DNA from: Pirellulales bacterium
GTDB taxonomy: Bacteria > Planctomycetota > Planctomycetia > Pirellulales > JAEUIK01
DNA length: 64,000 nucleotides
NCBI GenBank assembly: GCA_019745975.1
Contig: JAIESQ010000062.1
Location: 1-64,000 of the forward strand
Reading direction: 5' to 3'
Every line of letters starts with the position of its first letter. The first letter of the stretch is position 1. The notes under the pieces were generated by a model that worked only from the letters and a program-made list of their open reading frames with translations, was not told the origin of the DNA and ran no database searches. The position numbers and the translations under genes are program-made. Below are positions 21,477 through 55,267 of the stretch, piece after piece.

Positions 21477-22409
21477 ATGGCTTCAACAATAGCCGCAACC
21501 CCGAATTGCACGCCTGCCGAAACACAGCGGCGGATTGAACCATCATGGGTTGCAGCCGCTTTGGTGCTCGGCGGATCATTCCTCTGGGCTTACTGGCCAA
21601 CGCTAACCAACATGGTGACGACCTGGAGCCGTGAGCCGGACTATTCGCACGGATTTCTTGTCGTACCCTTTGCGGCGTATTTGCTATGGGCAAGGCGTGA
21701 TCGTATGCCCACCGCGGCGGGCAAGCTCTCCTGGCTGGGCCTGCTTCCCATAGCACTGGCGGCGGTCGTTCGCGTAGTCGCTAGCTATCTGTCGTTTGAG
21801 CCCTTGGACGGCTACACGATCCCGCTTTGGGTGGCGGGCGTGGTGTGGTTTTTGTGGGGACCGCGCGTGATGTTATGGGCGCTGCCTGTAACATTGTTTC
21901 TGGCGTTCATGGTTCCCTTGCCGTGGCGCATCGAGTATCAGCTTAGTGAACCGATGCAGCGAATTGCGACCGCGGCCAGTTGCTGGCTGTTGCAACTTCT
22001 GGGACAGCCGGCTGTTGCTCGCGGACTGACGATCGTCGTCGACGAAGCAAAGCTTGAAGTCGAACAGGCTTGCAGCGGCTTGCGGCTGTTCATGGGCTTC
22101 TTTGCCGTGTCGGCCGCTTATGTGCTGATCGTCCGTAGGCCACTGTGGCAGTCGATTGTGATCATGTTAGCGGCGGCACCGATCGCGATCGTGTCGAATA
22201 TCTTGCGGATCACCGCGACAGGTTTGGTTTATCGCTACTCCGGTGGCGAATGGGCTCGCAAGGTCTCTCACGATGTCGCGGGCTGGGCGATGATTTTGCT
22301 TGCTAGCGCTTTACTTACATCGCTACTATGGTACTTGAATCGGCTTGTCGTTGAGGTGCGGGCGGTGCGCACTTACGGGTTATCGGAGGGGGATCGCGCC
22401 CCCCGGTAG
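21477..22409 (+). CDS. exosortase (EpsH/XrtA-like membrane transpeptidase)
   Basis: A polytopic membrane protein of 310 residues with about eight helices. It carries the exosortase/archaeosortase active-site set: Cys199 in EVEQACSGLRLFMGFF, Arg244 in SNILRITATGL and His265 in KVSHDVAGWA. An early PDYSHGFLVVPFAAYLLWARR is also typical. Exosortases cut C-terminal sorting signals (PEP-CTERM or similar) and are thought to link proteins to surface glycan. EpsI is encoded separately downstream (29397). No target with a visible PEP-CTERM tail occurs in the window. It is the first gene of the locus, and the ATG at 21477 has only a weak upstream purine stretch. Confidence 0.93.
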   Translation: MASTIAATPNCTPAETQRRIEPSWVAAALVLGGSFLWAYWPTLTNMVTTWSREPDYSHGFLVVPFAAYLLWARRDRMPTAAGKLSWLGLLPIALAAVVRVVASYLSFEPLDGYTIPLWVAGVVWFLWGPRVMLWALPVTLFLAFMVPLPWRIEYQLSEPMQRIATAASCWLLQLLGQPAVARGLTIVVDEAKLEVEQACSGLRLFMGFFAVSAAYVLIVRRPLWQSIVIMLAAAPIAIVSNILRITATGLVYRYSGGEWARKVSHDVAGWAMILLASALLTSLLWYLNRLVVEVRAVRTYGLSEGDRAPR

Positions 22410-31921: not shown

Positions 31922-33186
31922 TACCAAGTCTCCGTCCGCGCGTATTAATGCTGGTGCATCGAGTGCCGTTAGCGCCTGATCGCGGCGACCGCATTCGGTC
32001 TTATCATTTGCTGCGGTTCCTCGCCGAGCGCGCGGATGTGTGGCTCGCGACGTTGGCCGATGAACCCTGCAATCCCCAGCTCGTTGCGGGGCTCGAGCAG
32101 CTCTGTCCTCGACTGGCGATCGTGCCGCTCTCGACGATGCGCTGGCTGCGTGGGGGCGTGCGGTTGGCTCGAGGAAGGTCGGCCACGAGTGGACTATTTG
32201 AATCGCCAGACCTTCATCGTACCGTGGCCCAGTGGCATCGCGAGACCAAGTTTGACGCGGTGTTGGTGTTTTGTTCGAGCATGGTAGCCTATGCTCCCTG
32301 GCCGCGGCCCGACTGTCCGGTTGTTGTTGATCTTGTGGACGTCGACAGCCAGAAGTGGTCGGACTACGCGGCGCATGCGCGAGGATTGACGCGGTGGCTC
32401 TTTGCGCTCGAGTCGCGACGGTTGCGATTCCTGGAGCAATCGCTGGCTCAACGGAGCTCGGCGGTGGCGCTGGTCAGCCAGGCGGAGGCCGCGATATATC
32501 GTCAGATTGCCCCCACTGCCCGCGTCATCGCCATTCCCAACGGCGTGAATCTCGACTTTTTCAACCCGCCAGCAGCGGTCAATTCGCGCGAGATACCCGA
32601 CTCGTGCGTCTTTGTCGGCGCGCTCGACTATCGGGCAAACGTCGACGGCCTTACCTGGTTCGTCCGGAAAGTTTGGCCGAGCGTGCGTGCGCAGGTACCA
32701 CAGGCGCGATTGAAGCTTGTCGGGCGTTCCCCATCACCCGCCATCGAGCGCCTCGCGCAGCATCCTGGCATCGACGTTGTAGGAACCGTAGCCGATGTAC
32801 GGCCCTATCTGGAACGTGCCGCAGTCGCAATTGTGCCGCTCCGGATCGCGCGCGGGATACAGAACAAGGTGTTAGAAGCGGCCGCCATGCGCAAGGCGAT
32901 GATCGTTTCGCCGGCAGCCCTGGAAGGATTGGCGATGGTGGCGGACCGCGACGTCCTGGTTGCCAGCGACGCGCAGGCCTGGTGCGATCATCTGAAGCGA
33001 CTCTTCGGCGACGGCGCAGAGCGGCGGCGTTTGGCGTCAGCCGCCCGCGACTATGTCGAACGGCAGCACTCGTGGACGGCGTGCCTGCAACCCTTCGCGG
33101 AACTACTGCAGTTGCCTGGTGTAACGTCGGAACCGCTTCAGCCGCGATTGGCTGAACAGACCTCGCTGGCGGAGACGCCGACGTGA
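31918..33186 (+). CDS. glycosyltransferase, exosortase-associated (Daro_2409-like)
   Basis: A 422-residue GT-B glycosyltransferase. The opening RPRVLMLVHRVPLAPDRGDR matches the TIGR03087 group found next to exosortases. VDLVDVDSQKWSDYA and the donor-site region VPLRIARGIQNKVLEAAAM are family-like. The GTG at 31918 overlaps the deacetylase stop (GTGA), and the stop overlaps the next GTG in the same way. Translational coupling is therefore expected. The sugar donor and acceptor are unknown. Confidence 0.88.
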   Translation: MIPSLRPRVLMLVHRVPLAPDRGDRIRSYHLLRFLAERADVWLATLADEPCNPQLVAGLEQLCPRLAIVPLSTMRWLRGGVRLARGRSATSGLFESPDLHRTVAQWHRETKFDAVLVFCSSMVAYAPWPRPDCPVVVDLVDVDSQKWSDYAAHARGLTRWLFALESRRLRFLEQSLAQRSSAVALVSQAEAAIYRQIAPTARVIAIPNGVNLDFFNPPAAVNSREIPDSCVFVGALDYRANVDGLTWFVRKVWPSVRAQVPQARLKLVGRSPSPAIERLAQHPGIDVVGTVADVRPYLERAAVAIVPLRIARGIQNKVLEAAAMRKAMIVSPAALEGLAMVADRDVLVASDAQAWCDHLKRLFGDGAERRRLASAARDYVERQHSWTACLQPFAELLQLPGVTSEPLQPRLAEQTSLAETPT

Positions 33187-34643
33187 ACCGCGGAGGCTCC
33201 GCAAACTTTAATGAATCGCCACCGCGACGTTGGCACTTCGTCGTGGCGGCAGTCGGCTACCTGACGTTGGCTGTTTACGGAAGTTTGGTGCCGCTGGCGT
33301 ATCGAGCGCTCGGTTGGAACGAAGCACTCACTCGCTTCGCGGAAATCCGCTACCTGAATCTCGGCATCGAGTCGCGCTCCGATTGGGTTGCCAACATCTT
33401 GTTGTTCGTGCCATTGGCCTGGCTGACGATGGGGGCCCTCTGCGTCGATCGCTCGCTAATCTGGGCCGCACTGTGCGCGATCGTCGTGGCGGTCACCTGC
33501 CACCTGTTAAGCTGGTCGATCGAATTCGTGCAGTTGTACTTTCCAGCGCGTACGGCGTCGGTCAACGACGTCGTAGCAGAATCCATCGGCGGGACGATCG
33601 GCTGTGTCGCCTGGCTGGTCAGCGGTCAAGCGATTAGCAATTGGTGCCGGCGGGTCTGGTCGCTAAATCGCGCCGCGAGCGCGCTGCCAGCCTTGGTGCT
33701 GCTGGGGTATCTGTTTGTGTTGGTGTTGATCCACTTGATGCCGATGGACCTGACGATCAGTCCAGCGGAGGTTTATCGCAAATTCAAAGCCGGCCGCATC
33801 CTGCCGATTCCCTTTTCACAGGTGGACCGTGGCCGGGAATTCGCGCAGGGTACGATCTGGAACATGATCTACTTTTGCCCGCTGGGTTGGCTGTTAGCGG
33901 CCCTGCGGAAGGCCGACGGAAGCTTCAGATTCGGTCTGCTGGCAATTGGAGGAGTCGGCGTGCTGACAACGTCGGCAATTGAAGCCATGCAACTGTTCGT
34001 ATATTCGCTTCGCAGTGACACGACCGACATCGTGACCGGCACGGCAGCGATCGTTGCGGGTGCCGCTGCGGCGCGCTCTTGGCCGGCACCCGCCGTGATG
34101 CCAGACTTGGCCGACCCGCCGGATAGGGACGCAACTCTAGGTCGGCGTGCGGTCCTGCCGACGCTAGGGCGGCGAGGCAATTTGAGCGCAGCGAAAGCGC
34201 TAGTGTGGTTGTTGCCCGTCGCCTGGTGTGGCGCTCTTGCCGTGCTGAATTGGTGGCCATTTCGCTTTACGACCGCGCCACTTCCCGAGGCCCACGGTGT
34301 GCCGCTGCCGCTCTGGCGAGCGCGACGAATCTATTGGCTCCCTTTCAAAGACTATTATTGGCGAGGCGAGTTTGCGTCGTTTGGCCAGGCATTGGAAAGA
34401 GGAGTCGCCTTCGCAGCTTTAGGAGCAATATTGGCAATGGCCTGGCACGTGCGCTCCATTTGGCTGGCTGTCGGGTTCGCTTTGTTCGTGGCAAGCGTGT
34501 TGGAATTCGGCCAGTTCTTCATCGTCGCGCGCTATCCGAGCGTGAGCGATGTTTTGGTTGAATCGCTGGGTGCGTGGTGTGGATTTGTGCTTTGGCAGCG
34601 CTGGCAGCGGCCGGAGATCGCGGCCATAGCTATTTCGAAATGA
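33183..34643 (+). CDS. three-module VanZ-like membrane protein
   Basis: A polytopic protein of 486 residues that contains the VanZ signature three times: EFVQLYFPARTASVNDVVAE (114-133), EAMQLFVYSLRSDTTDIVTG (267-286) and EFGQFFIVARYPSVSDVLVE (about 441-460). Each pattern is ExxQ, then Arg, then (N/T/S)D(V/I) at the end of a membrane helix. VanZ domains are linked to teicoplanin resistance and occur in exosortase loci, but their chemistry is unknown. Single-module proteins are about 130-200 residues, so this triplication is notable. The GTG overlaps the upstream stop by 4 bp. Confidence 0.85.
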   Translation: MNRGGSANFNESPPRRWHFVVAAVGYLTLAVYGSLVPLAYRALGWNEALTRFAEIRYLNLGIESRSDWVANILLFVPLAWLTMGALCVDRSLIWAALCAIVVAVTCHLLSWSIEFVQLYFPARTASVNDVVAESIGGTIGCVAWLVSGQAISNWCRRVWSLNRAASALPALVLLGYLFVLVLIHLMPMDLTISPAEVYRKFKAGRILPIPFSQVDRGREFAQGTIWNMIYFCPLGWLLAALRKADGSFRFGLLAIGGVGVLTTSAIEAMQLFVYSLRSDTTDIVTGTAAIVAGAAAARSWPAPAVMPDLADPPDRDATLGRRAVLPTLGRRGNLSAAKALVWLLPVAWCGALAVLNWWPFRFTTAPLPEAHGVPLPLWRARRIYWLPFKDYYWRGEFASFGQALERGVAFAALGAILAMAWHVRSIWLAVGFALFVASVLEFGQFFIVARYPSVSDVLVESLGAWCGFVLWQRWQRPEIAAIAISK

Positions 34644-40419: not shown

Positions 40420-41351
40420 ATCAGCTGCTCGTCAGCGTGGTGATTCCCGTCTTCAATGGCGCCGACTTCCTGCCGACCGCGCTTGACCACGTTTTCAATC
40501 AGACCTATCAACGTTTGCAGGTGATCATTGTCGACGATGGCTCGACGGATCGCACGCCCGAGGTACTCGCACGGTACGCGACACAGATCGAGGTTCAGCG
40601 TCAGCCAAACCGGGGCGTGGGCCACGCGCGCAACACGGGGATTGCCGCATCTCGCGGTGATTATGTGGCCTTCCTCGATCAGGACGACTGGTGGCATCGC
40701 GACAAGATTTCCCGACAAGTCGCTTGCTTCGAACAGGACGGAGGTGTCGGGCTCGTGCATACGGGCGTCGACTATTTCGACCAACGCTCACGAGCGATTA
40801 CCAAGCCGCTTAATCCGGTCGCTCGTCCCGAACTGTTGCAAGGCGACTGCTTTCGACGACTGCTCGAAGAAAACCACGTCCGCAATTCGAGCGTGATGGT
40901 TCGCCGCCGGTTGTTAGCCGAGGTCGGGGCCTGCGACCAGGCGATCTCGGGGAACACGGTCCAGGATTACGACCTGTGGCTGCGTTTGGCGCGTGTCAGC
41001 CGCTTTGCGTATTTGCCAGAATCGTTAACAGTGATTCGCCTGCACCAGCAACAAGGAACCTGGGATCGCCGACAGATGCTCGGCGAGGAGGCGCGATTGC
41101 TAGAGCGCCTGCGGGCTCGCGAGCCCAGCCTGACGCAGGGCTTACGCCGCCGCATGGCAGGGCTCTATGACTCGCTGGGAGTTGCCCATCTCGACGCCGG
41201 CGAAGCGCGTGCCGCGCGCCGCGCCTTCAGACGTTCGTTGAGCGAACAGTTCACGCCGCGCGGGGCAATGCTCTATCTATCCACGCTCCTGCCAGCCAGC
41301 CTGCGAGAGACGTTGCGTCAGAACCGACGCCAACTGGGAGACGCCTTGTGA
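40416..41351 (+). CDS. glycosyltransferase, family 2
   Basis: A 311-residue GT-A enzyme. LVSVVIPVFNGADFLPTALD opens the fold. VIIVDDGSTDRTPEVL gives the nucleotide-binding Asp pair, and AFLDQDDWW contains the DxD-like metal motif. NTVQDYDLWLRLARVS carries the acceptor-side catalytic region. The C-terminus (from about 230) is an Arg-rich helical stretch ending in TPR-like AHLDAGEARAARRAFRRSL. The start and stop both overlap neighbours by 4 bp (GTGA). Confidence 0.9.
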   Translation: MNQLLVSVVIPVFNGADFLPTALDHVFNQTYQRLQVIIVDDGSTDRTPEVLARYATQIEVQRQPNRGVGHARNTGIAASRGDYVAFLDQDDWWHRDKISRQVACFEQDGGVGLVHTGVDYFDQRSRAITKPLNPVARPELLQGDCFRRLLEENHVRNSSVMVRRRLLAEVGACDQAISGNTVQDYDLWLRLARVSRFAYLPESLTVIRLHQQQGTWDRRQMLGEEARLLERLRAREPSLTQGLRRRMAGLYDSLGVAHLDAGEARAARRAFRRSLSEQFTPRGAMLYLSTLLPASLRETLRQNRRQLGDAL

Positions 41352-42052
41352 GCGCATCACTACCGACGGCGGAGCGAGCGCCGCTTGAGCCATCGCAGCG
41401 CCGCGCGCAGCCGCCCGCGGAGCGCTCGCCACTGAAGAGTGCCGCAAAGCGCATCGTGGGCTTCGTCGCGCTGTGTGTGGTGATTCCGGCATTCGTGGTC
41501 TACTTGATCGGTCGCGCCATCGTCGGTCCGGTAAGAGCTTTTGCCACATGGTCGCAAGCGTTTAGCCTCGTGCCAGGGCTGCCTGGCGAATACCTGCGCA
41601 GGGCGTTTTGCAAACTAACGCTCGCCCATTGTGGCGACGACGTATGCATCACCTTTGGTACGTTGATCTCGCACCCGACCGCCAGTCTGGGAGACCGCAC
41701 GTATGTCGGCGCGTATTGCATGCTTGGCGATGTGACACTCGAAGAAGACGTGCTGCTCGGCTCGCACGTTTCGATCATCAACGGCGGCGCTCAGCATGGC
41801 ACCGAGCGGCTCGACTTGCCGATTCGTGAACAGCGAGGTCGGTGGCGACGGATCACAATTGGGCGCGATACCTGGATCGGCGATCGCTCGGTGGTGCTCG
41901 CCGACGTGGGACGGCATTGTGTCGTAGGCGCAGGCTCGGTAGTGGTCTCGCCCTTGGCCGACTACGCCGTCGCCGTGGGCAACCCAGCTCGCGTGTTGCG
42001 CTACCGGAACGAAGAAGCTCTCGGACCAATCAACGCGTCAGGCGAGTCGTGA
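41348..42052 (+). CDS. hexapeptide-repeat acyltransferase with membrane anchor
   Basis: A 234-residue protein. A hydrophobic segment (about 36-56, FVALCVVIPAFVVYLIGRA) precedes a left-handed beta-helix with imperfect hexapeptide repeats (SLGDRTYVGAYCMLGDVTLE, then ITIGRDTWIGDRSVVLADVG). The motif ISHPTASLGD and the final GNPARVLRYRN are typical of the maltose/galactoside acetyltransferase group. It probably acetylates a sugar of the polysaccharide. The GTG overlaps the GT2 stop by 4 bp. Its own stop overlaps the GTG of an asparagine-synthase remnant. Confidence 0.85.
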   Translation: MSASLPTAERAPLEPSQRRAQPPAERSPLKSAAKRIVGFVALCVVIPAFVVYLIGRAIVGPVRAFATWSQAFSLVPGLPGEYLRRAFCKLTLAHCGDDVCITFGTLISHPTASLGDRTYVGAYCMLGDVTLEEDVLLGSHVSIINGGAQHGTERLDLPIREQRGRWRRITIGRDTWIGDRSVVLADVGRHCVVGAGSVVVSPLADYAVAVGNPARVLRYRNEEALGPINASGES

Positions 42053-42294
42053 CCGAACGCCGGAGCAAAGACCCAATGGGCGGCATTGCCGGAGGTCTGT
42101 ACGCTGAGCTAACTCGGCCCGTCGACCCCGCCGTGTCGCGCGCGATGGGAGACGCGATTGCTCATCGCGGTCCAGATGGCGGAAGCTATTGGCAAGCGCC
42201 AGGCGTGGGATTGGTGCGTCGCCGGCAGTCGATCATCGACCTGGCAGTTGGCGAACAGCGACTGCGTAACGAATTCCGAACGTTAATCGGGTAA
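42049..42294 (+). pseudogene. truncated asparagine synthase-like remnant
   Basis: A GTG overlaps the preceding stop (GTGA), as for the other genes. From the ATG at 42076 the frame reads MGGIAGGLYAELTRPVDPAV, then DAIAHRGPDGGSYW and VRRRQSIIDLAVGEQRLRNE. This is the first about 72 residues of an asparagine synthase (exosortase-associated amidotransferase type). The rest, about 500-600 residues, is absent, and TAA occurs at 42292. The residue after Met is Gly instead of the catalytic Cys2. This is probably a decayed gene, although translation of a short peptide cannot be ruled out. The 118 bp to the next gene shows no continuing homology. Confidence 0.8.
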
Positions 42295-42412: not shown

Positions 42413-42958
42413 ATGCTTGGCTGGGTAGTTCCGCACTTGCGTGTCGACAGCGTGCTCGATCTAACGGTCGAAGAACTGTCGCGATTTCGCTTGCGCGGAT
42501 TGCTACTCGATGTGGACTGCACCCTGAAGGATCATGGCGCCGCGGAATTCCGCCCGGAGATCGCGGCTTGGATCGACAATTTGCGCACAGCCGAGATGCG
42601 CATGTGTTTGTTGTCCAACGGCCGACCGCGGCGCATCGAACGGCTGGCCAGTTCGCTGGGCGTGCCATTCGTTGCGCAAGCGATGAAGCCCTGGCCGAGC
42701 GGCTGCCATGTCGCGGTGCAACGTTGTGGTTTACCGTCGCACGAGGTCGCTGTCGTGGGGGATCAACTTTTCGCCGACGTGCTGGCAGGGCGCTTGGCGG
42801 GGCTATTCACGATCCTGGTGAATCCGACGTCAAAGGTCGAGCCCTGGTTCACGAAATTGAAGCGACCGTTGGAACGCCCCGTACTATCCTGGCTCGATCG
42901 CCGTGATCGTCGTCGTGCCGCACGTCAAACCAAATCCAGTGAGAATCAGACGTCGTGA
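42413..42958 (+). CDS. HAD-family phosphatase, YqeG-like
   Basis: A 181-residue HAD phosphatase. The nucleophile motif LLLDVDCTL (Asp33, Asp35) corresponds to the DxDxT signature. LLSNGRPRR supplies the Ser/Asn of motif II, Lys92 follows in QAMKPWP, and VVGDQLFADVLAG is the motif IV sequence of the YqeG group (HAD-IIIA). YqeG relatives act on phosphoglycolipid- or phosphate-monoester substrates. The UbiA prenyltransferase gene overlaps its stop by 4 bp. This pairing resembles mycobacterial decaprenyl-phosphate ribosylation, where a phosphatase follows the transferase. That role here is inferred. Confidence 0.8.
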   Translation: MLGWVVPHLRVDSVLDLTVEELSRFRLRGLLLDVDCTLKDHGAAEFRPEIAAWIDNLRTAEMRMCLLSNGRPRRIERLASSLGVPFVAQAMKPWPSGCHVAVQRCGLPSHEVAVVGDQLFADVLAGRLAGLFTILVNPTSKVEPWFTKLKRPLERPVLSWLDRRDRRRAARQTKSSENQTS

Positions 42959-43992
42959 GCCGCCTGGCAGAACCTACTGACCCGCAACTCTCCGATAGCG
43001 CTGCAACGGCGCCGCATGTCGTGGCTCGCACAGGCACGTGGCACAAGCTGCTACCGTACCTGTCGATTGCACGCCCCGACCACTGGATTAAGAACTCCTT
43101 CATGGGGCTAGGGGTGCTGTTGGCGTTCTTTTATTACCCCAACTTGCTGGATTGGGAAGCAGCGGGTCGGGTGCTTTGGGCACTGATGACGACCTGCCTT
43201 GCAGCGTCGAGCAACTATGTTCTCAACGAGATTCTCGACGCCCCCAAGGATCGGCATCACCCTGTCAAGCACGCGCGGCCGATCCCTTCGGGACAAATCA
43301 GGCTGCCGATCGCCTACATCGAATGGCTCTTGTTGGGCGGACTGGCGATGGCGGCCGCCTGGCAGTTGAACGTTGCATTCGCCGCGTCGGCGGCGGCGCT
43401 GCTCTTCATGGGGCTCGTTTACAACGTGCCCCCGGTGCGCTCAAAAGAGCTGCCCTACGTCGATGTGCTAAGCGAGTCAGTCAACAATCCCTTGCGGCTG
43501 TTGTTAGGCTGGTTCGCCGTCACCGCGGCCACGGTACCGCCCGTCACGTTGATGGTCTTTTACTGGATGATCGGTGCTTTCTTCATGGCCAGCAAGCGCT
43601 TTGCCGAATACCGCTCCATCGGCGATCCGGTTGTGGCGGCCAGCTATCGCGGTTCGTTCCGTCACTGCAACGATCAGCAACTGCTCATTAGCATGTTCTT
43701 TTATGCCACCGCGGCGGCGCTGTTCTTGGGCATGTTCATCATCCGCTATCACCTGGAACTGATTCTAAGCGTGCCACTGATCGCCGGCTTCTTCAGCATG
43801 TACATGCGGCTCGCGCTCAAGAAGGACAGTGCCGCGCAGAGCCCCGAACGTCTCTACCGCGAAGCGGGCCTGATGATCTATCTAGTGGTCTGCGTGGTCG
43901 TCTTCGTCTGGTTGATGTTTGTGGAAGTACGGTACTTGCACGAACTATTCAACGTGCCTAAGTCGGATATGCCGACGTTGTGGCAACTCTGA
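42955..43992 (+). CDS. UbiA-family prenyltransferase (DPPR-synthase-like)
   Basis: A membrane protein of 345 residues. The first active-site motif is NEILDAPKDR (Asn91, Asp95, Asp99), followed by HHPVKHARPIPSG. That close D-pair with the HPxKxxRPI run resembles decaprenyl-phosphate 5-phosphoribosyltransferase (Rv3806c) more than UbiA for quinones. The second Asp motif is in YVDVLSESVNNPLR. An RPDHWIKN N-terminal motif is also family-like. It may transfer phosphoribose from PRPP to polyprenyl phosphate. Quinone or haem prenylation is the alternative. GTG start, overlapping the HAD gene by 4 bp. Confidence 0.82.
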   Translation: MSRLAEPTDPQLSDSAATAPHVVARTGTWHKLLPYLSIARPDHWIKNSFMGLGVLLAFFYYPNLLDWEAAGRVLWALMTTCLAASSNYVLNEILDAPKDRHHPVKHARPIPSGQIRLPIAYIEWLLLGGLAMAAAWQLNVAFAASAAALLFMGLVYNVPPVRSKELPYVDVLSESVNNPLRLLLGWFAVTAATVPPVTLMVFYWMIGAFFMASKRFAEYRSIGDPVVAASYRGSFRHCNDQQLLISMFFYATAAALFLGMFIIRYHLELILSVPLIAGFFSMYMRLALKKDSAAQSPERLYREAGLMIYLVVCVVVFVWLMFVEVRYLHELFNVPKSDMPTLWQL

Positions 43993-45482
43993 TGGCGACG
44001 GCTGCCGAAACCGTGCGGCTCGCCGCGCAGGACTCAACGGCCGCGAACGTTGTGGGTCCGGCCAAGTCCGTGCGTAAGGACTGCGCGCCGCCAGCAACAC
44101 TAACGGGGCTTCTTGTCATTCTGCTCGTCGGCCTGCTCGTACGCGCGCTGCTTTGGAGCTGGTTTGCCGGGATCGAAATCCACGACGACGAGCGCGACTA
44201 CGACGCTTTGGCGGTCAGCCTGGCACTAGACAATTGTTATCGCCTGCAGGGGCAGACCACGTCGATCCGCCCGCCGCTCTATCCCTTCGCGGTGTCGTTG
44301 GTGTATCGCGTCGTGGGCGTTGACGAGCCCACAGACCTTGCACGAGCGCGGCACATCGTCCGGGCGCTGCAGGCGGTTCTGAGTCTGGCCACGGTTTGCG
44401 TGGTCTATCGACTTGGAATCGATCTGTTTGACGGGCGCGTCGGATTGTGGGCGGCGGCGATCATCTGCTTCTATCCATCGCTGATGGCATACAACAATTT
44501 GATACTTACCGAAGTGCTATTCACCTTTTGGTTGACGCTGGCCGTCTGGCTGGCGGTTAAGTACCTGAAGTGCGGCGATTGGCGCTGGGCGCCCGCGACC
44601 GGAGCCGTGATCGGACTGGGGTCGCTCGCCCGCAGCGCCTTGTGGATGTTCCCGCCGGTATTAGGCCTATTCTGGTTGGTGCTTGGTCCGGGCGGACTGC
44701 GATCGCGCCTGGCTGGGCCTGTCTTGATGATCGGCAGTTTCGCCGTTGTCATTGGTCCATGGGCGGTGCGGAACACGCGGCTCGAAAGCACCTTCATCAC
44801 GATCGACTCGATGGGCGGACGTAACATAATGATGGGCAACTACGAGTACACACCGCTGTGGCGCGCCTGGGACGCGATCAGCATCGGGGGGGAGCAGGCT
44901 TGGTATCGAGTGCTCGCGCGCCGCTACGAGAACTTCCGCGATCTGACGCAAGGACAGCGTGACAAGCTCGCCATGCGCGAAGGTGTTCGCTTTGTGTTGG
45001 CCAATCCGGGACTAACGGCTCGGCGCGACGCGGTCAAGTTCTTCAATTTCTGGCAGCTCGAGCGCGAAGTTGTCGCCGCTGCAGGGCGAGGACTCTTTGG
45101 TGACTTGCCTACGGTTGTCGTGCTACTGATTACCCTGCTGGTATTTGGCTCGTACGCGCTACTCCTGGTGGGGGCGATCATCGGTGCAATCGCGGCCCCG
45201 CCATCCGACTGGCGCGCGCACCTGATGTGCGCGCTGGTTATCGCTTTCTTATGCGCGCTGCACACCGTCGTGTTCGCGCATTCGCGATATCATTTGCCGC
45301 TGGTGCCGATTCTGGCGTGCTACGCGGCGCAAGCGCTCGTCGCGCGGCGGGAGATTTGGGCTCGGCGCCGGCGCCGACTCTGGGTCGCGGTGGTTGTTGT
45401 CGGGGTATTCGTGGCCGGTTGGCTATTTGAGATCGCCTACGTCGACTTCGACAAGTTTGCCGAAATTTTGCGGAGCACATGA
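43992..45482 (+). CDS. GT-C family membrane glycosyltransferase (ArnT/PMT-like)
   Basis: A 496-residue polytopic protein of the dolichyl/polyprenyl-phosphate-sugar glycosyltransferase type (GT39/GT83-like). The first periplasmic loop contains EIHDDERDYDALAVSLALDN, with acidic catalytic candidates, and later RPPLYPF. Such enzymes take sugar from a polyprenyl-phosphate donor. That fits the upstream HAD/UbiA pair as producers of a lipid-linked pentose. The ATG at 43992 overlaps the UbiA stop by one base (TGATG). An in-frame GTG at 43980 is possible. Confidence 0.8.
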   Translation: MATAAETVRLAAQDSTAANVVGPAKSVRKDCAPPATLTGLLVILLVGLLVRALLWSWFAGIEIHDDERDYDALAVSLALDNCYRLQGQTTSIRPPLYPFAVSLVYRVVGVDEPTDLARARHIVRALQAVLSLATVCVVYRLGIDLFDGRVGLWAAAIICFYPSLMAYNNLILTEVLFTFWLTLAVWLAVKYLKCGDWRWAPATGAVIGLGSLARSALWMFPPVLGLFWLVLGPGGLRSRLAGPVLMIGSFAVVIGPWAVRNTRLESTFITIDSMGGRNIMMGNYEYTPLWRAWDAISIGGEQAWYRVLARRYENFRDLTQGQRDKLAMREGVRFVLANPGLTARRDAVKFFNFWQLEREVVAAAGRGLFGDLPTVVVLLITLLVFGSYALLLVGAIIGAIAAPPSDWRAHLMCALVIAFLCALHTVVFAHSRYHLPLVPILACYAAQALVARREIWARRRRRLWVAVVVVGVFVAGWLFEIAYVDFDKFAEILRST

Positions 45483-45487
45483 GCTGA

Positions 45488-47395
45488 ATGCCGGGGATTT
45501 GCGGATTTCTAGCTAGCCAGGCACCAAGCGACGCGACCGAACGCTTGGCCCAATTCGTTAAGCCGCTCGAGCTGTACGATTGGTACCGCAGCGAATCGCA
45601 CGCAGACGACGTCGCGGGGTGGGGTCTTGCTCGCGTGTCGCTCGGCCTTGTGAACACAGCGTCGCAGCCTGTTGCCAGCGACGACCGCACCCGCTGGTGC
45701 GTGCTCGATGGCGAGATCTTCGACACGGCTCCGCTACGCGCCCAACTGCACGCCGATGGCTGCCAGCTACGGACCGACAGCGATGCCGAATTGCTTTTGC
45801 AAGGCTACCAGGCTCACGGTTTAGCGTTCTTGCGGCAATTGAATGGCAAATTCGCCGCGGCCATTGTCGATGTACAGGCACGCCAGGTAACGCTCCTCAA
45901 CGACCGTTTTGGCATGAAGCCACTGTATTTTGCCACCACACCCGATGGGGTGTTGTTTGCGTCGGAGATCAAGTCGCTCTTGGCAGACAGGCAAACTCCA
46001 AGGCGGCTCAATCTGCGCGGCGTCGCGCAGTTCTTCAGCTTTGGCCAATTGTTCGGGCAGGACACACTCGTCGAAAATATCGTCGGACTGCCGGCGGCGG
46101 CGTGCGTCACGATCGACGCTTCCAGCGGTCAAATGGAGGCCGCACGGTATTGGCAGTCGGCAGAAGCCCCGTTAGCCCCCCGCAGCGAAAGCGAATGGCT
46201 CGACGAAGTGGATCGCCGCTTGGCGGTCGCCGTCGAGCGGCAGTCGCACGATACTCCCGGTCTGGGGATTTCGCTATCGGGTGGGCTCGACTCGCGTCTG
46301 ATTTTGGCGCTTATCGATCACTCGCGGGTGCCGGTCACTTCGCTCAGCCTTGGCATGGCTGGTTCGCTCGATCATCGGTGTGCCGAGCGCATGGCGGCGC
46401 TGACCAACCGCCGGCATTATAGTCACGTGCTTAGTCACGATTTTTTGCACGAATTTGCCGGCCACATGCGACACATGGTCCACCTGACTGACGGACATTA
46501 TCTCTCGCAGTGCATTGTCATCCCCACACTTCCCATCTATCGGCAACTGGGGATCGGAGTATTGCTGCGCGGTCACGCGGGCGAGCTGCTGCACATGGGT
46601 AAGGCGTACAACTTTTCGCTCGATGACGCGGCCCTAGGCATCTCGACCGCCAGTGAACTGGAAGGCTGGCTCTGGAAGCACCTGCGCGCTTACATGCTCG
46701 AAGCGGTCGACAGTCCACTGCTGGCCGCGGCCGACACGGCTGAAGTCGAATGCCTGGCGCGCGAATCGCTGCATAGTGCGCTCGAACCGTTGTCGACGGT
46801 CGACCCGGTCCTACAGCGCGTGTGGCACCTGTTCGTGAGCGAGCGATTGCGGCGCGAGACGGCGCTGTCGATGGTCGAATTCGGTTCGGTCGTCGAAACG
46901 CGGCTGCCGTATCTTGATAATGACTTGGTCGATTCGCTCCTGGCCGCCCCACCGCATCTCAAGCTCGGAGAGACTCTGCAGCAATACATGCTCGCGCGGC
47001 GCAAGCCCGAGTTTCTCGATATCCCCAACGCCAACACGGGCACGCGGATCGGAGCGGGGAAGCTCGCGCAAAGACTGGCCACCCTGCGGATGAGAGTATT
47101 CGCCAAGGTCGGCGTACCGGGCTATCAACCGTACGAGCGGCTGGGGTTGTGGCTGCGGCGTGAGCTGGCCCCCTGGGTGTGTGAGCTGCTGTTGGCCGAC
47201 CGCACACTGCAGCGCGGTGTCTTTCGACCCGACACGTTGCGATCCGTCGTACGCCAGCACCTCGATCACCAGCGGAATCACACGTTCTTGCTCTTGGCAC
47301 TGATGATCTTCGAGCTTGGACAACGCGAATTCTTGGATGGTGAAGCTTACGAGCCGGCCCAATTGGCCGCCATCGTGGCGACCAATCAGCCATGA
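45488..47395 (+). CDS. asparagine synthase-like protein with degenerate glutaminase site
   Basis: A 635-residue homologue of glutamine-hydrolysing asparagine synthase (exosortase-associated type). The C-terminal ATP site is intact: GISLSGGLDSRLIL (SGGLDS at 264-269), then DHRCAERMAALTNRR. The N-terminal glutaminase domain is altered. It begins MPGICGF instead of MCGIxG, so the nucleophile position is Pro and the nearest Cys is residue 5. The usual NGE oxyanion motif is DGEIFD (Asp74). It may use ammonia, or another nitrogen or acyl donor, to amidate uronic acids. The gene starts 5 bp after the GT-C gene. Its stop overlaps the next ATG (ATGA). Confidence 0.85.
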   Translation: MPGICGFLASQAPSDATERLAQFVKPLELYDWYRSESHADDVAGWGLARVSLGLVNTASQPVASDDRTRWCVLDGEIFDTAPLRAQLHADGCQLRTDSDAELLLQGYQAHGLAFLRQLNGKFAAAIVDVQARQVTLLNDRFGMKPLYFATTPDGVLFASEIKSLLADRQTPRRLNLRGVAQFFSFGQLFGQDTLVENIVGLPAAACVTIDASSGQMEAARYWQSAEAPLAPRSESEWLDEVDRRLAVAVERQSHDTPGLGISLSGGLDSRLILALIDHSRVPVTSLSLGMAGSLDHRCAERMAALTNRRHYSHVLSHDFLHEFAGHMRHMVHLTDGHYLSQCIVIPTLPIYRQLGIGVLLRGHAGELLHMGKAYNFSLDDAALGISTASELEGWLWKHLRAYMLEAVDSPLLAAADTAEVECLARESLHSALEPLSTVDPVLQRVWHLFVSERLRRETALSMVEFGSVVETRLPYLDNDLVDSLLAAPPHLKLGETLQQYMLARRKPEFLDIPNANTGTRIGAGKLAQRLATLRMRVFAKVGVPGYQPYERLGLWLRRELAPWVCELLLADRTLQRGVFRPDTLRSVVRQHLDHQRNHTFLLLALMIFELGQREFLDGEAYEPAQLAAIVATNQP

Positions 47396-53122: not shown

Positions 53123-55267
53123 GTGAGCGTCTCCACGAGGCACGTGGAATCCTCCGAGTCTAAACCGGACTCGCCGCGCGCATCGGTTAACAACCGATGG
53201 CGGCATTTCGGGCCGCTGCTGCTCGTGTTGGCCGCTTGGCTCTGGTTCGTTGGCGCGTTGGTCAGAGAACCAGGTAATCTGTTTCTCATCGATACGTCGC
53301 TGATCGATGTGCCGTTTCGCGTAACTGCCGCGCGCATGATCCGGCAAGGGGACTTTCCCTTCTGGATATCGCAAGTCGAGTGTGGCTTTCCACTCTTCGC
53401 CGATGGACAAACGGGAATTCTCTATCCGCCGTTCGCGCTCTACCTGATTAGCCCGACCCCTGCCATGCACGACTTTTTCATGGCGCTGCATTACCTGGGC
53501 GCAGGGTTGGCAATGTACCTGTACCTGATGGGTCGACGGGTGCAGCCCCTTGCTGGGGCGTTGGGTGCTGCGATCTTTCTCGGTGGCCCCGTGTTGTTGG
53601 CCGCCCACGTCGTACCAGGTATCGTCTGCACGATCGCTTGGATCCCCTTGGCGTTGTGGTGCATCGACCGAGGCGCACAAGGGCACCCCGCCGCGCTATG
53701 GTGGTGCGCTGCCGTCAATGGATTGGTGTTGCTGGCAGGCGTGCCAAACACGGCGCTTTTCTGCATACTCGTCGAGGCCGTCTATCTAATCAGTGTGTTG
53801 TGGCGCCGCGGCATCTGGGCAACGGCCCGATCGGGGCTGCTCCTGCTCGGCGTGGGGGCAAGCTTGGCCGCGGTCCAACTTCTTCCGACGTACGACTATT
53901 ATCGGCAGTCTCACCGCGAAGCCGGGATCGATTGGGCGACCATCGAGACTAACTGCGTGAGGACACCTCGCGAGATTGCCACGATGGGAGTCTGTCGTGC
54001 TGTCGACATTCCCGGCAGTTGGCCGGGCTACGCCCTCGTGGCAAGTGTCGGAACCGCGATTGCGCTCACGAATCGGTCGCGGCGCGCGGAGTCCTGCTTC
54101 TGGCTGGCGCTGGCCATCTTTGGATTGCTGATCGCCACGGGTACTCCGCTGTTGCGGCTATGGTACTTGCTACCAGTTGTCTCGTGGTTTCGTTGGCCGA
54201 TGCTCTATGTCCTGATCACGCATCTGGCCGCGTGCGTACTGATCGGCCTCGGAGCGGATGTCGCCTTGCATTGGGCAGCCTGGCTCTTGCCACGTGCTCG
54301 TTCGTTGGGCCGACTGGTCTTCGTTTATGGCGCATGTTCAGCGGCCATCCTCGCGGCCTGCTGGAATACACTCGGGGAGTGCCAGTCACCGCCTGGGTTC
54401 TACGAGCTGGGATCCGCGGCCATCCTCAAGGCGGCTCACGACTCGCCCGACTTTCGACTACTTCCTCTCTTGCACGGCTCCATCGAGGGGCGCGAGCTCC
54501 CCTACGAACAGCGGTTCTGGTCGCTGCGACGGCAACTCGACAGTGCCATCGTACTGGCACCCGATTATTCGTTACTGCATGGAGTGTCGGCGGCGGTTCT
54601 CAAGAATCAGATCGACGCCGTGACGCCACGTGCCTTCACCGAATTGATCACGGCCGTGCCGCGGCTGACCGCGGCCTTCCTGCGTGTGGCCGCCATCACG
54701 CACGTCTCCGATATCGAGCCCGTCTCGGGCTCGCTTGCACAAGCGCTTGAGGTGCAGTCAACCGATCCGGCCTTTCTCTACACGGTGCGCGAGCCGCAGC
54801 CTCGTGCGTGGCTGGTCGGCGAGACTAAGACAATACCGGACGCTGTCGCCAGGCTGCGGCACATCCTGGTTGGTGATTTCGATTGTCGGCAGACGGCCGT
54901 GGTCGAAACACCCGACGCGGCGCTCCCAGTTCGGCCTGAGGTTGCGAGCGAGCCGGCTCAGGCGGTCGACGGCGAGGTCGAGCTGACCGAGCCGAATCCC
55001 GGTCGTCTGGTCATCCGCGTGCGCGCCACGTCCGAGGCCATGCTCGTGGTGGCCGACCGCTACGCACCGGAGATCGCGGCGGAAGTCGATGGTCAGCCTG
55101 CGAAGCTCGTTCGCGTCAATCACGCCTTTCGCGGCGTGCGGCTGCCTGCCGGCGAGCATCTAGTGGAAATGCGTTATGTGCCGACGGCATTCTGGCTGGG
55201 CGCAGCCATTTCAGCGCTCGCCGCCGTCGTCACGGTTAGCGGCATCGTGGTTTCACGTCGTCGGTAG
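53123..55267 (+). CDS. YfhO-like membrane protein
   Basis: A protein of 714 residues with about ten to twelve membrane helices in the first 430 residues and a soluble C-terminal domain. FWISQVECGFPLFADGQTGI and LYPPFALYLISPTPAMHDFF are typical of the YfhO/GT-C group, relatives of PMT glycosyltransferases that decorate teichoic acids or glycans. The C-terminal ELTEPNPGRLVIRVRATSEA and GVRLPAGEHLVEMRYVP are the usual YfhO beta-domain end. It probably moves a sugar from a polyprenyl-phosphate donor. GTG start. It is transcribed with, or after, the exported protein gene. Confidence 0.82.
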   Translation: MSVSTRHVESSESKPDSPRASVNNRWRHFGPLLLVLAAWLWFVGALVREPGNLFLIDTSLIDVPFRVTAARMIRQGDFPFWISQVECGFPLFADGQTGILYPPFALYLISPTPAMHDFFMALHYLGAGLAMYLYLMGRRVQPLAGALGAAIFLGGPVLLAAHVVPGIVCTIAWIPLALWCIDRGAQGHPAALWWCAAVNGLVLLAGVPNTALFCILVEAVYLISVLWRRGIWATARSGLLLLGVGASLAAVQLLPTYDYYRQSHREAGIDWATIETNCVRTPREIATMGVCRAVDIPGSWPGYALVASVGTAIALTNRSRRAESCFWLALAIFGLLIATGTPLLRLWYLLPVVSWFRWPMLYVLITHLAACVLIGLGADVALHWAAWLLPRARSLGRLVFVYGACSAAILAACWNTLGECQSPPGFYELGSAAILKAAHDSPDFRLLPLLHGSIEGRELPYEQRFWSLRRQLDSAIVLAPDYSLLHGVSAAVLKNQIDAVTPRAFTELITAVPRLTAAFLRVAAITHVSDIEPVSGSLAQALEVQSTDPAFLYTVREPQPRAWLVGETKTIPDAVARLRHILVGDFDCRQTAVVETPDAALPVRPEVASEPAQAVDGEVELTEPNPGRLVIRVRATSEAMLVVADRYAPEIAAEVDGQPAKLVRVNHAFRGVRLPAGEHLVEMRYVPTAFWLGAAISALAAVVTVSGIVVSRRR

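Follow-up and report, generated by a model that had tools for sequence, protein, structure and literature searches.

Background

The synthesis of lipid-phosphate-linked ribofuranose by a HAD-UbiA fusion protein, and its use by a GT-C glycosyltransferase, have been proven in Citrobacter (Kelly et al. 2024, PMC11127046). The pentofuranose system of Citrobacter youngae O1/O2 has three components: ORF15, which combines a polyprenyl-phosphate phosphoribosyltransferase (PPPRS) with a HAD phosphatase; ORF14, a flippase; and ORF12, a GT-C enzyme of family GT136 (PMC11127046). The same paper describes PRPP-dependent ribofuranosyltransferases (gPRT with PRP), which also rely on a PRPP donor and a HAD phosphatase, but in which a cytoplasmic transferase works directly on the glycan without a lipid-linked donor. 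The mycobacterial DPA pathway consists of Rv3806c, Rv3807c, DprE1/DprE2 and GT-C arabinosyltransferases, and a structure paper on Rv3806c names the residues that contact PRPP, Mg and the lipid phosphate (PMC10994848). HAD and UbiA domains are also joined in a family of fusion proteins (NF006088/PRK08238). A plasmid search with a planctomycete HAD-UbiA fusion as the query returned further fusions, which we used as references; the one from Rhodovulum (L208) has a GT-C gene directly next to it, and the one from Burkholderia (L209) adjoins an FAD oxidoreductase and SDRs, in the fashion of DprE1/DprE2, as well as GtrA.

We analyzed three adjacent genes in a Pirellulales bacterium (GCA_019745975.1, contig JAIESQ010000062.1); “the window” refers to the whole 64,000-nucleotide stretch in which they lie. 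Among the papers listed by a literature search on UbiA proteins with exosortase or PEP-CTERM, none brings UbiA and exosortase together.

A HAD-UbiA-GT-C module in an exosortase locus

The three open reading frames (Table 1) overlap, and the HAD, UbiA and GT-C families to which an earlier note on this DNA had assigned them are borne out by Pfam and NCBIfam. The HAD protein scores 119.7 bits against TIGR01668 (YqeG-type; cut-off 89.1) and, as read from its sequence, carries the motifs DVDCT, SNG, K and GDQLFAD. The UbiA protein matches PF01040 with an E value of 4.7e-25 and contains the motifs NEILDAPKDR and HHPVKHARPI, as the note had it; the GT-C protein matches PF13231 (PMT_2) at 6.3e-12. The HAD and UbiA genes overlap by four bases (GTGA at 42955). 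Since the UbiA stop shares TGATG with an in-frame ATG at 43992, that ATG is a likelier start for the GT-C gene than the GTG at 43980 of the listed open reading frame. The asparagine-synthase-like gene begins 5 bases past the GT-C stop, a position matched in five relatives (L039, L041-L044).

Table 1. Features of the module and its surroundings, in window coordinates
Feature	Position	Strand	Family matches and remarks
Exosortase EpsH, marks the locus	21477..22409	+	PF09721, E 4.9e-61
Hexapeptide acyltransferase, conserved neighbour	41348..42052	+	PF00132; L039-L044 have homologues upstream of their modules
Remnant of a second amidotransferase (asparagine-synthase-like) gene, upstream of HAD	42076..42294	+	61% identical (66 aa aligned) to the L039 gene, which is intact
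YqeG-type HAD-IIIA phosphatase	42413..42958	+	TIGR01668, PF09419/PF00702; putative lipid-phosphoribose 5'-phosphatase
UbiA-fold membrane enzyme	42955..43992	+	PF01040; putative PRPP:polyprenyl-phosphate phosphoribosyltransferase (PPPRS-like)
GT-C glycosyltransferase	43992..45482	+	PF13231/PF02366; putative user of lipid-linked pentose
Asparagine-synthase-like amidotransferase, follows GT-C in the operon	45488..47395	+	PF00733/PF13537, TIGR03108-like

The surroundings are those of a planctomycete exosortase locus, as the note had also held: besides EpsH there are an EpsI-type DUF3485 protein, an initiating sugar transferase (Bac_transf), a deacetylase, Wzy_C, several GT4s and a FemAB-like protein. 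Three other features of the locus deserve mention. In the amidotransferase remnant the catalytic Cys is replaced by Gly (MGGI for MCGI) before the gene breaks off, and the same slot holds an intact gene in L039 and L041-L044. A VanZ-family membrane protein is encoded at 33183-34643, and another occurs in L049 (13548-15119), directly after a DprE1-DprE2-UbiA operon. A large YfhO-like membrane protein at 53123-55267 is possibly a further lipid-dependent glycosyltransferase.

With the Citrobacter system the window shares a putative UbiA-type phosphoribosyltransferase, a HAD phosphatase and a GT-C enzyme in a surface-glycan locus, and with its O1 (ribose) version the absence of DprE1/E2 from the locus. 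The PPPRS and HAD components are present as a gene pair with intact motifs and putative activities; unlike in Citrobacter, the HAD, of YqeG type, has a gene of its own, the UbiA protein belongs to a different subfamily, and the genes stand in an exosortase EPS locus. For the 500-aa GT-C protein of the window, helices are predicted up to the end, and no beta-rich carbohydrate-binding domain at the C terminus. A dedicated flippase of the Citrobacter kind (small SMR/MATE-type or GtrA) was likewise missing: Pfam models for SMR (PF00893) and GtrA (PF04138) found no match in the window's genome, and no flippase candidate was recognized among the genes of the EPS locus.

We propose that the UbiA-fold protein would load a polyprenyl phosphate (probably undecaprenyl phosphate) with 5-phosphoribose from PRPP at the cytoplasmic face, that the HAD protein would remove the 5-phosphate, that the resulting polyprenyl-phosphate-ribofuranose would be flipped by some transporter, and that the GT-C enzyme would add the pentofuranose, most likely ribofuranose, to the exopolysaccharide of the exosortase locus or to another surface glycan. 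We put the probability of this lipid-linked pentofuranose route, taken as a whole, at about 0.7. The earlier note had suggested the same sequence of PRPP transfer, dephosphorylation and GT-C use by analogy with mycobacteria, and residues, profile, fold and gene order all favor it. The mycobacterial model comes second to the Citrobacter precedent, however, because Rv3807c, the phosphatase of mycobacteria, bears no relation to HAD proteins (PMC11127046). What the window appears to have in common with the DPA pathway is the phosphoribosyltransferase active site and fold and a lipid-linked pentose for a GT-C enzyme.

Which pentose the module would donate

The note had reported no DprE1/DprE2 here and had suggested that ribose may be kept. 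Neither epimerase component is found among the annotated genes of the window locus, and DprE1 is absent from all of the best 80 of 284 relatives' loci, with flanks of up to 10 kb on each side. Elsewhere in the window's genome (G000), however, another contig carries a DprE1 homologue (C152:8142-9539, L052) that matches M. smegmatis DprE1 (4aut) with an E value of 2.1e-65, the next non-DprE1 family following at 3e-12. Nothing resembling DprE2 or UbiA lies beside it, and the genome has no clear DprE2, the best match being a generic SDR at 31%; DprE1 and DprE2 were thus not found together in locus or genome.

This orphan is what keeps an arabinose product in consideration. The same lipid-phosphoribose pathway could operate, with the distant DprE1 homologue and an unrelated SDR in the role of DprE2 epimerizing the sugar to arabinofuranose. 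The DprE1 homologue is genuine, and among the four UbiA-family matches in the genome the window protein is the only one that is neither short nor more strongly matched by the general UbiA model and that has the phosphoribosyltransferase residues, in a residue table drawn up without C193. Against this stand the isolation of the DprE1 gene, the generic character of the best SDR and the absence of DprE1 from the 80 loci. Across the order, DprE1 occurs in only 2 of 10 genomes with the UbiA subfamily of the window protein and in 4 of 48 without it, counts by which co-occurrence of the two is not shown. We consider arabinose unlikely.

Other genomes of the order do have the two epimerase genes side by side: one (G032, L049) has a DprE1-DprE2-UbiA operon, a putative arabinose module, and two others (G010, G027) have DprE1 and DprE2 as a pair. 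The G032 operon was rejected as a model for the window, its UbiA protein being of another clade and 28% identical to the window protein. The simplest reading of the gene content is that ribose is kept; with an orphan DprE1 in the genome but no clear DprE2, it is likely, short of certain.

The UbiA protein resembles Rv3806c in its active site and forms a separate subfamily

In a phmmer search of the PDB with the window UbiA protein, two Rv3806c entries were the sole matches (best E 4.6e-13). A profile built from 57 relatives ranked Rv3806c (8j8j) first at 8.2e-24, followed by an Archaeoglobus UbiA protein at 3.8e-10 and an archaeal lipid synthase at 8.5e-6. The AlphaFold model of the protein (pLDDT 91.2) has donor-bound Rv3806c (8j8j) as its best fold match, with a TM score of 0.82 by target and an rmsd of 3.2 A; other UbiA families reach at most 0.75, with archaeal UbiA-family structures at 0.69-0.75.

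The residues agree with this picture. Of the PRPP, Mg and lipid-phosphate contacts named for Rv3806c (PMC10994848), R22, K28, Y70, N73, D77, K87, R90, Y138 and K191 are all found in the window protein, and none of these nine varies across the 57 aligned relatives; D81, R192, E195 and K143 (K164 in the window protein) are also conserved in it and its close relatives. Differences include Q135, Y157 and K208 of Rv3806c, replaced in the window protein by G, N and G, and D74, replaced by E; loop 2 carries a PPxRxKELPY insertion. The haem-type UbiA paralogue in the same genome is without K28, Y70 and K191.

The whole sequence is another matter. Identity to Rv3806c is 23% in the structural alignment, and the scores against the Rv3806c equivalogs NF008977 and NF008978 (84.7 and 73.4 bits) fall short of the cut-offs (234 and 207). 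NCBIfam models place HAD-UbiA first (5e-25), then decaprenyl-phosphate phosphoribosyltransferase (7e-24) and haem o synthase (3e-11). A tree with 81 rows puts the window subfamily on one side of a branch with weak support (33); Rv3806c and the HAD-UbiA fusions form a clade (support 97*) that leaves the subfamily outside, and the tree, in which long branches are flagged, does not resolve whether the two are sisters. The fusions differ from the window pair accordingly, being both fused and on the Rv3806c side. The window protein, judged by sequence, resembles Rv3806c in most residues testable yet is not filed as that family, and it forms its own subfamily apart from the equivalog. The description of its motifs as close to Rv3806c is therefore apt for the active site and too strong for the sequence as a whole, and a plain Rv3806c orthologue is ruled out by the equivalog cut-off and the tree. 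We know of no characterized member of this widespread branch.

Could the protein be a conventional prenyltransferase of the quinone, haem, chlorophyll or archaeal-lipid type, present in the locus incidentally? Its PF01040 fold, a second motif (PPxRxK..D..E) that resembles those of canonical enzymes, and weak matches to haem o synthase and chlorophyll synthase would allow it. In both profile and fold comparisons, however, Rv3806c is far ahead of those families, so that the earlier note's own worry about a quinone or haem prenyltransferase did not materialize; the PRPP-site residues are invariant; three other UbiA-family genes exist outside the locus; and the HAD and GT-C partners recur. We judge this explanation quite improbable, with a quinone or haem enzyme in particular ruled out by profile, fold and residues.

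HAD genes of several types recur beside the UbiA gene

Among nine close relatives of the same order, three have a HAD-UbiA pair (L040, L043, L046). More widely, a HAD gene lies within 300 bases of the UbiA gene on the same strand in 32 of 80 loci (an HMM count over the best 80 of 284 relatives), plus L175. HAD is not directly beside UbiA in 47-48 of these 80, a figure that is partly an artefact as some contigs end early, many of them less than 10 kb from the UbiA gene.

The HMM iteration had merged the YqeG and HAD_2 groups, and we therefore recounted adjacency with Pfam and control genes. HAD is the upstream neighbour of UbiA in 26 of 68 cases, compared with at most 1 of 60 controls (Fisher p 7e-8), and the downstream neighbour in 6 of 51. 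The controls were 60 genes 2.5-7 kb away; HAD and PMT_2 are both missing from the 25 families listed for them, hence at most one each. Clustering of neighbours over the 80 loci, with the window not used as a reference, gave three HAD groups near UbiA: 8 loci have the YqeG type, 20 a HAD_2-like group and 8 a PF12710 type, which is adjacent in 6 of them. By a simple pattern, 28 of the 32 adjacent HADs carry both motifs. The state of the HAD neighbour changes 14 times on the tree, and at least three types in one slot with this many changes are as expected if activity, not lineage, is maintained. That different HADs have repeatedly come to fill one slot speaks for a phosphatase step accompanying that of UbiA.

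The YqeG-type HAD could instead be a phosphatase for phosphatidylglycerophosphate that has no part in the UbiA step and is paired with it incidentally; its match to the mitochondrial enzyme family (PF09419, 3e-8) and its solitary occurrence in some other planctomycetes can be cited for this. That alternative is distinctly improbable: just 6 of 57 relatives have strong homologues (in 3 of the 6 beside a subfamily UbiA), so the protein is missing from most genomes of the order and is not a housekeeping phosphatase there, and other HAD types fill the same slot in other phyla.

In L039 (18477-19631, the same as L111 19246-20400), where no HAD adjoins the UbiA gene, a PRK08238/fusion-type HAD that has a C-terminal membrane region is encoded 8 kb away from it.

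GT-C enzymes and other neighbours

UbiA and GT-C genes are adjacent in 5 of the 9 close relatives (L039, L041-L044), and a GT-C gene lies within 3 kb of UbiA in 39 of the best 80 loci. PMT-type (PMT_2) GT-Cs make up 19 of 51 downstream neighbours and at most 1 of 60 controls (Fisher p 6e-7). The AlphaFold model of the window protein (pLDDT 89.6) is of a general GT-C type, in keeping with the PMT_2 match, and its fold matches are oligosaccharyltransferases, ArnT and Pmt4. The recurrence of HAD and a downstream GT-C would fit a two-step chemistry with a GT-C user, by analogy with the Citrobacter system.

In five relatives (L134, L162, L163, L165, L170) a methyltransferase, a Wzx-like flippase, a HAD and UbiA stand in a row, the HAD of L163 being recognized by HMM only; in L134 and L170 a GT-C gene follows. 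L170 belongs to the complete genome of Planctomycetes bacterium Poly30, and its row of genes is a candidate for a complete lipid-sugar system. In four loci (L041 6480-9152, L042 10086-12761, L046 6271-8910, L040 4684-7506) the module has beside it a conserved protein, about 880-940 aa long, that is missing from the module of the window; some of these proteins show weak similarity to PcRGLX (rhamnogalacturonan lyase-like) or GH127.

Distribution of the subfamily

Scanning genome contigs turned up 284 relatives of the UbiA protein. The best 80 are about 46-65% identical to the window protein and come from about ten phyla: Planctomycetota (42), Acidobacteriota, Thermodesulfobacteriota, Myxococcota, Nitrospirota, Pseudomonadota, Verrucomicrobiota, Chloroflexota, Calditrichota and others. 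Many of the records are metagenome bins, in which single taxonomic assignments may be wrong; named strains include Poly30, Candidatus Laterigemmans baculatus JC640 and Thermodesulfatator autotrophicus S606. A phage search with the window protein gave one short match. Some relatives (L114-L119, L125-L127) lie outside any recognizable glycan locus. In Thermoguttaceae bins, several of them from ruminants (L114, L116-L119), the UbiA gene adjoins a UvrA-like gene and very long antisense open reading frames, with neither HAD nor GT-C.

Discussion

Beyond the window, the data may describe a second, distinct group of PRPP:polyprenyl-phosphate phosphoribosyltransferases, present in about ten phyla and frequently linked to EPS loci, with separate HADs swapped time and again among at least three types and, in some lineages, a Wzx-type and not an SMR flippase. 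We regard this broader reading as evenly balanced. It singles out a UbiA subfamily that current annotation describes as a mere prenyltransferase, and the named strains (Poly30, JC640, S606) make the proposal testable.

If it is true, extracytoplasmic ribofuranosylation would be widespread and mostly unseen on the surfaces of environmental bacteria. Lipid-linked pentofuranose chemistry, known from mycobacteria and from some Gram-negative O antigens and pili, would extend to Planctomycetota, Acidobacteriota, Myxococcota and others, and exosortase EPS loci would gain a specific sugar prediction, namely ribofuranose.
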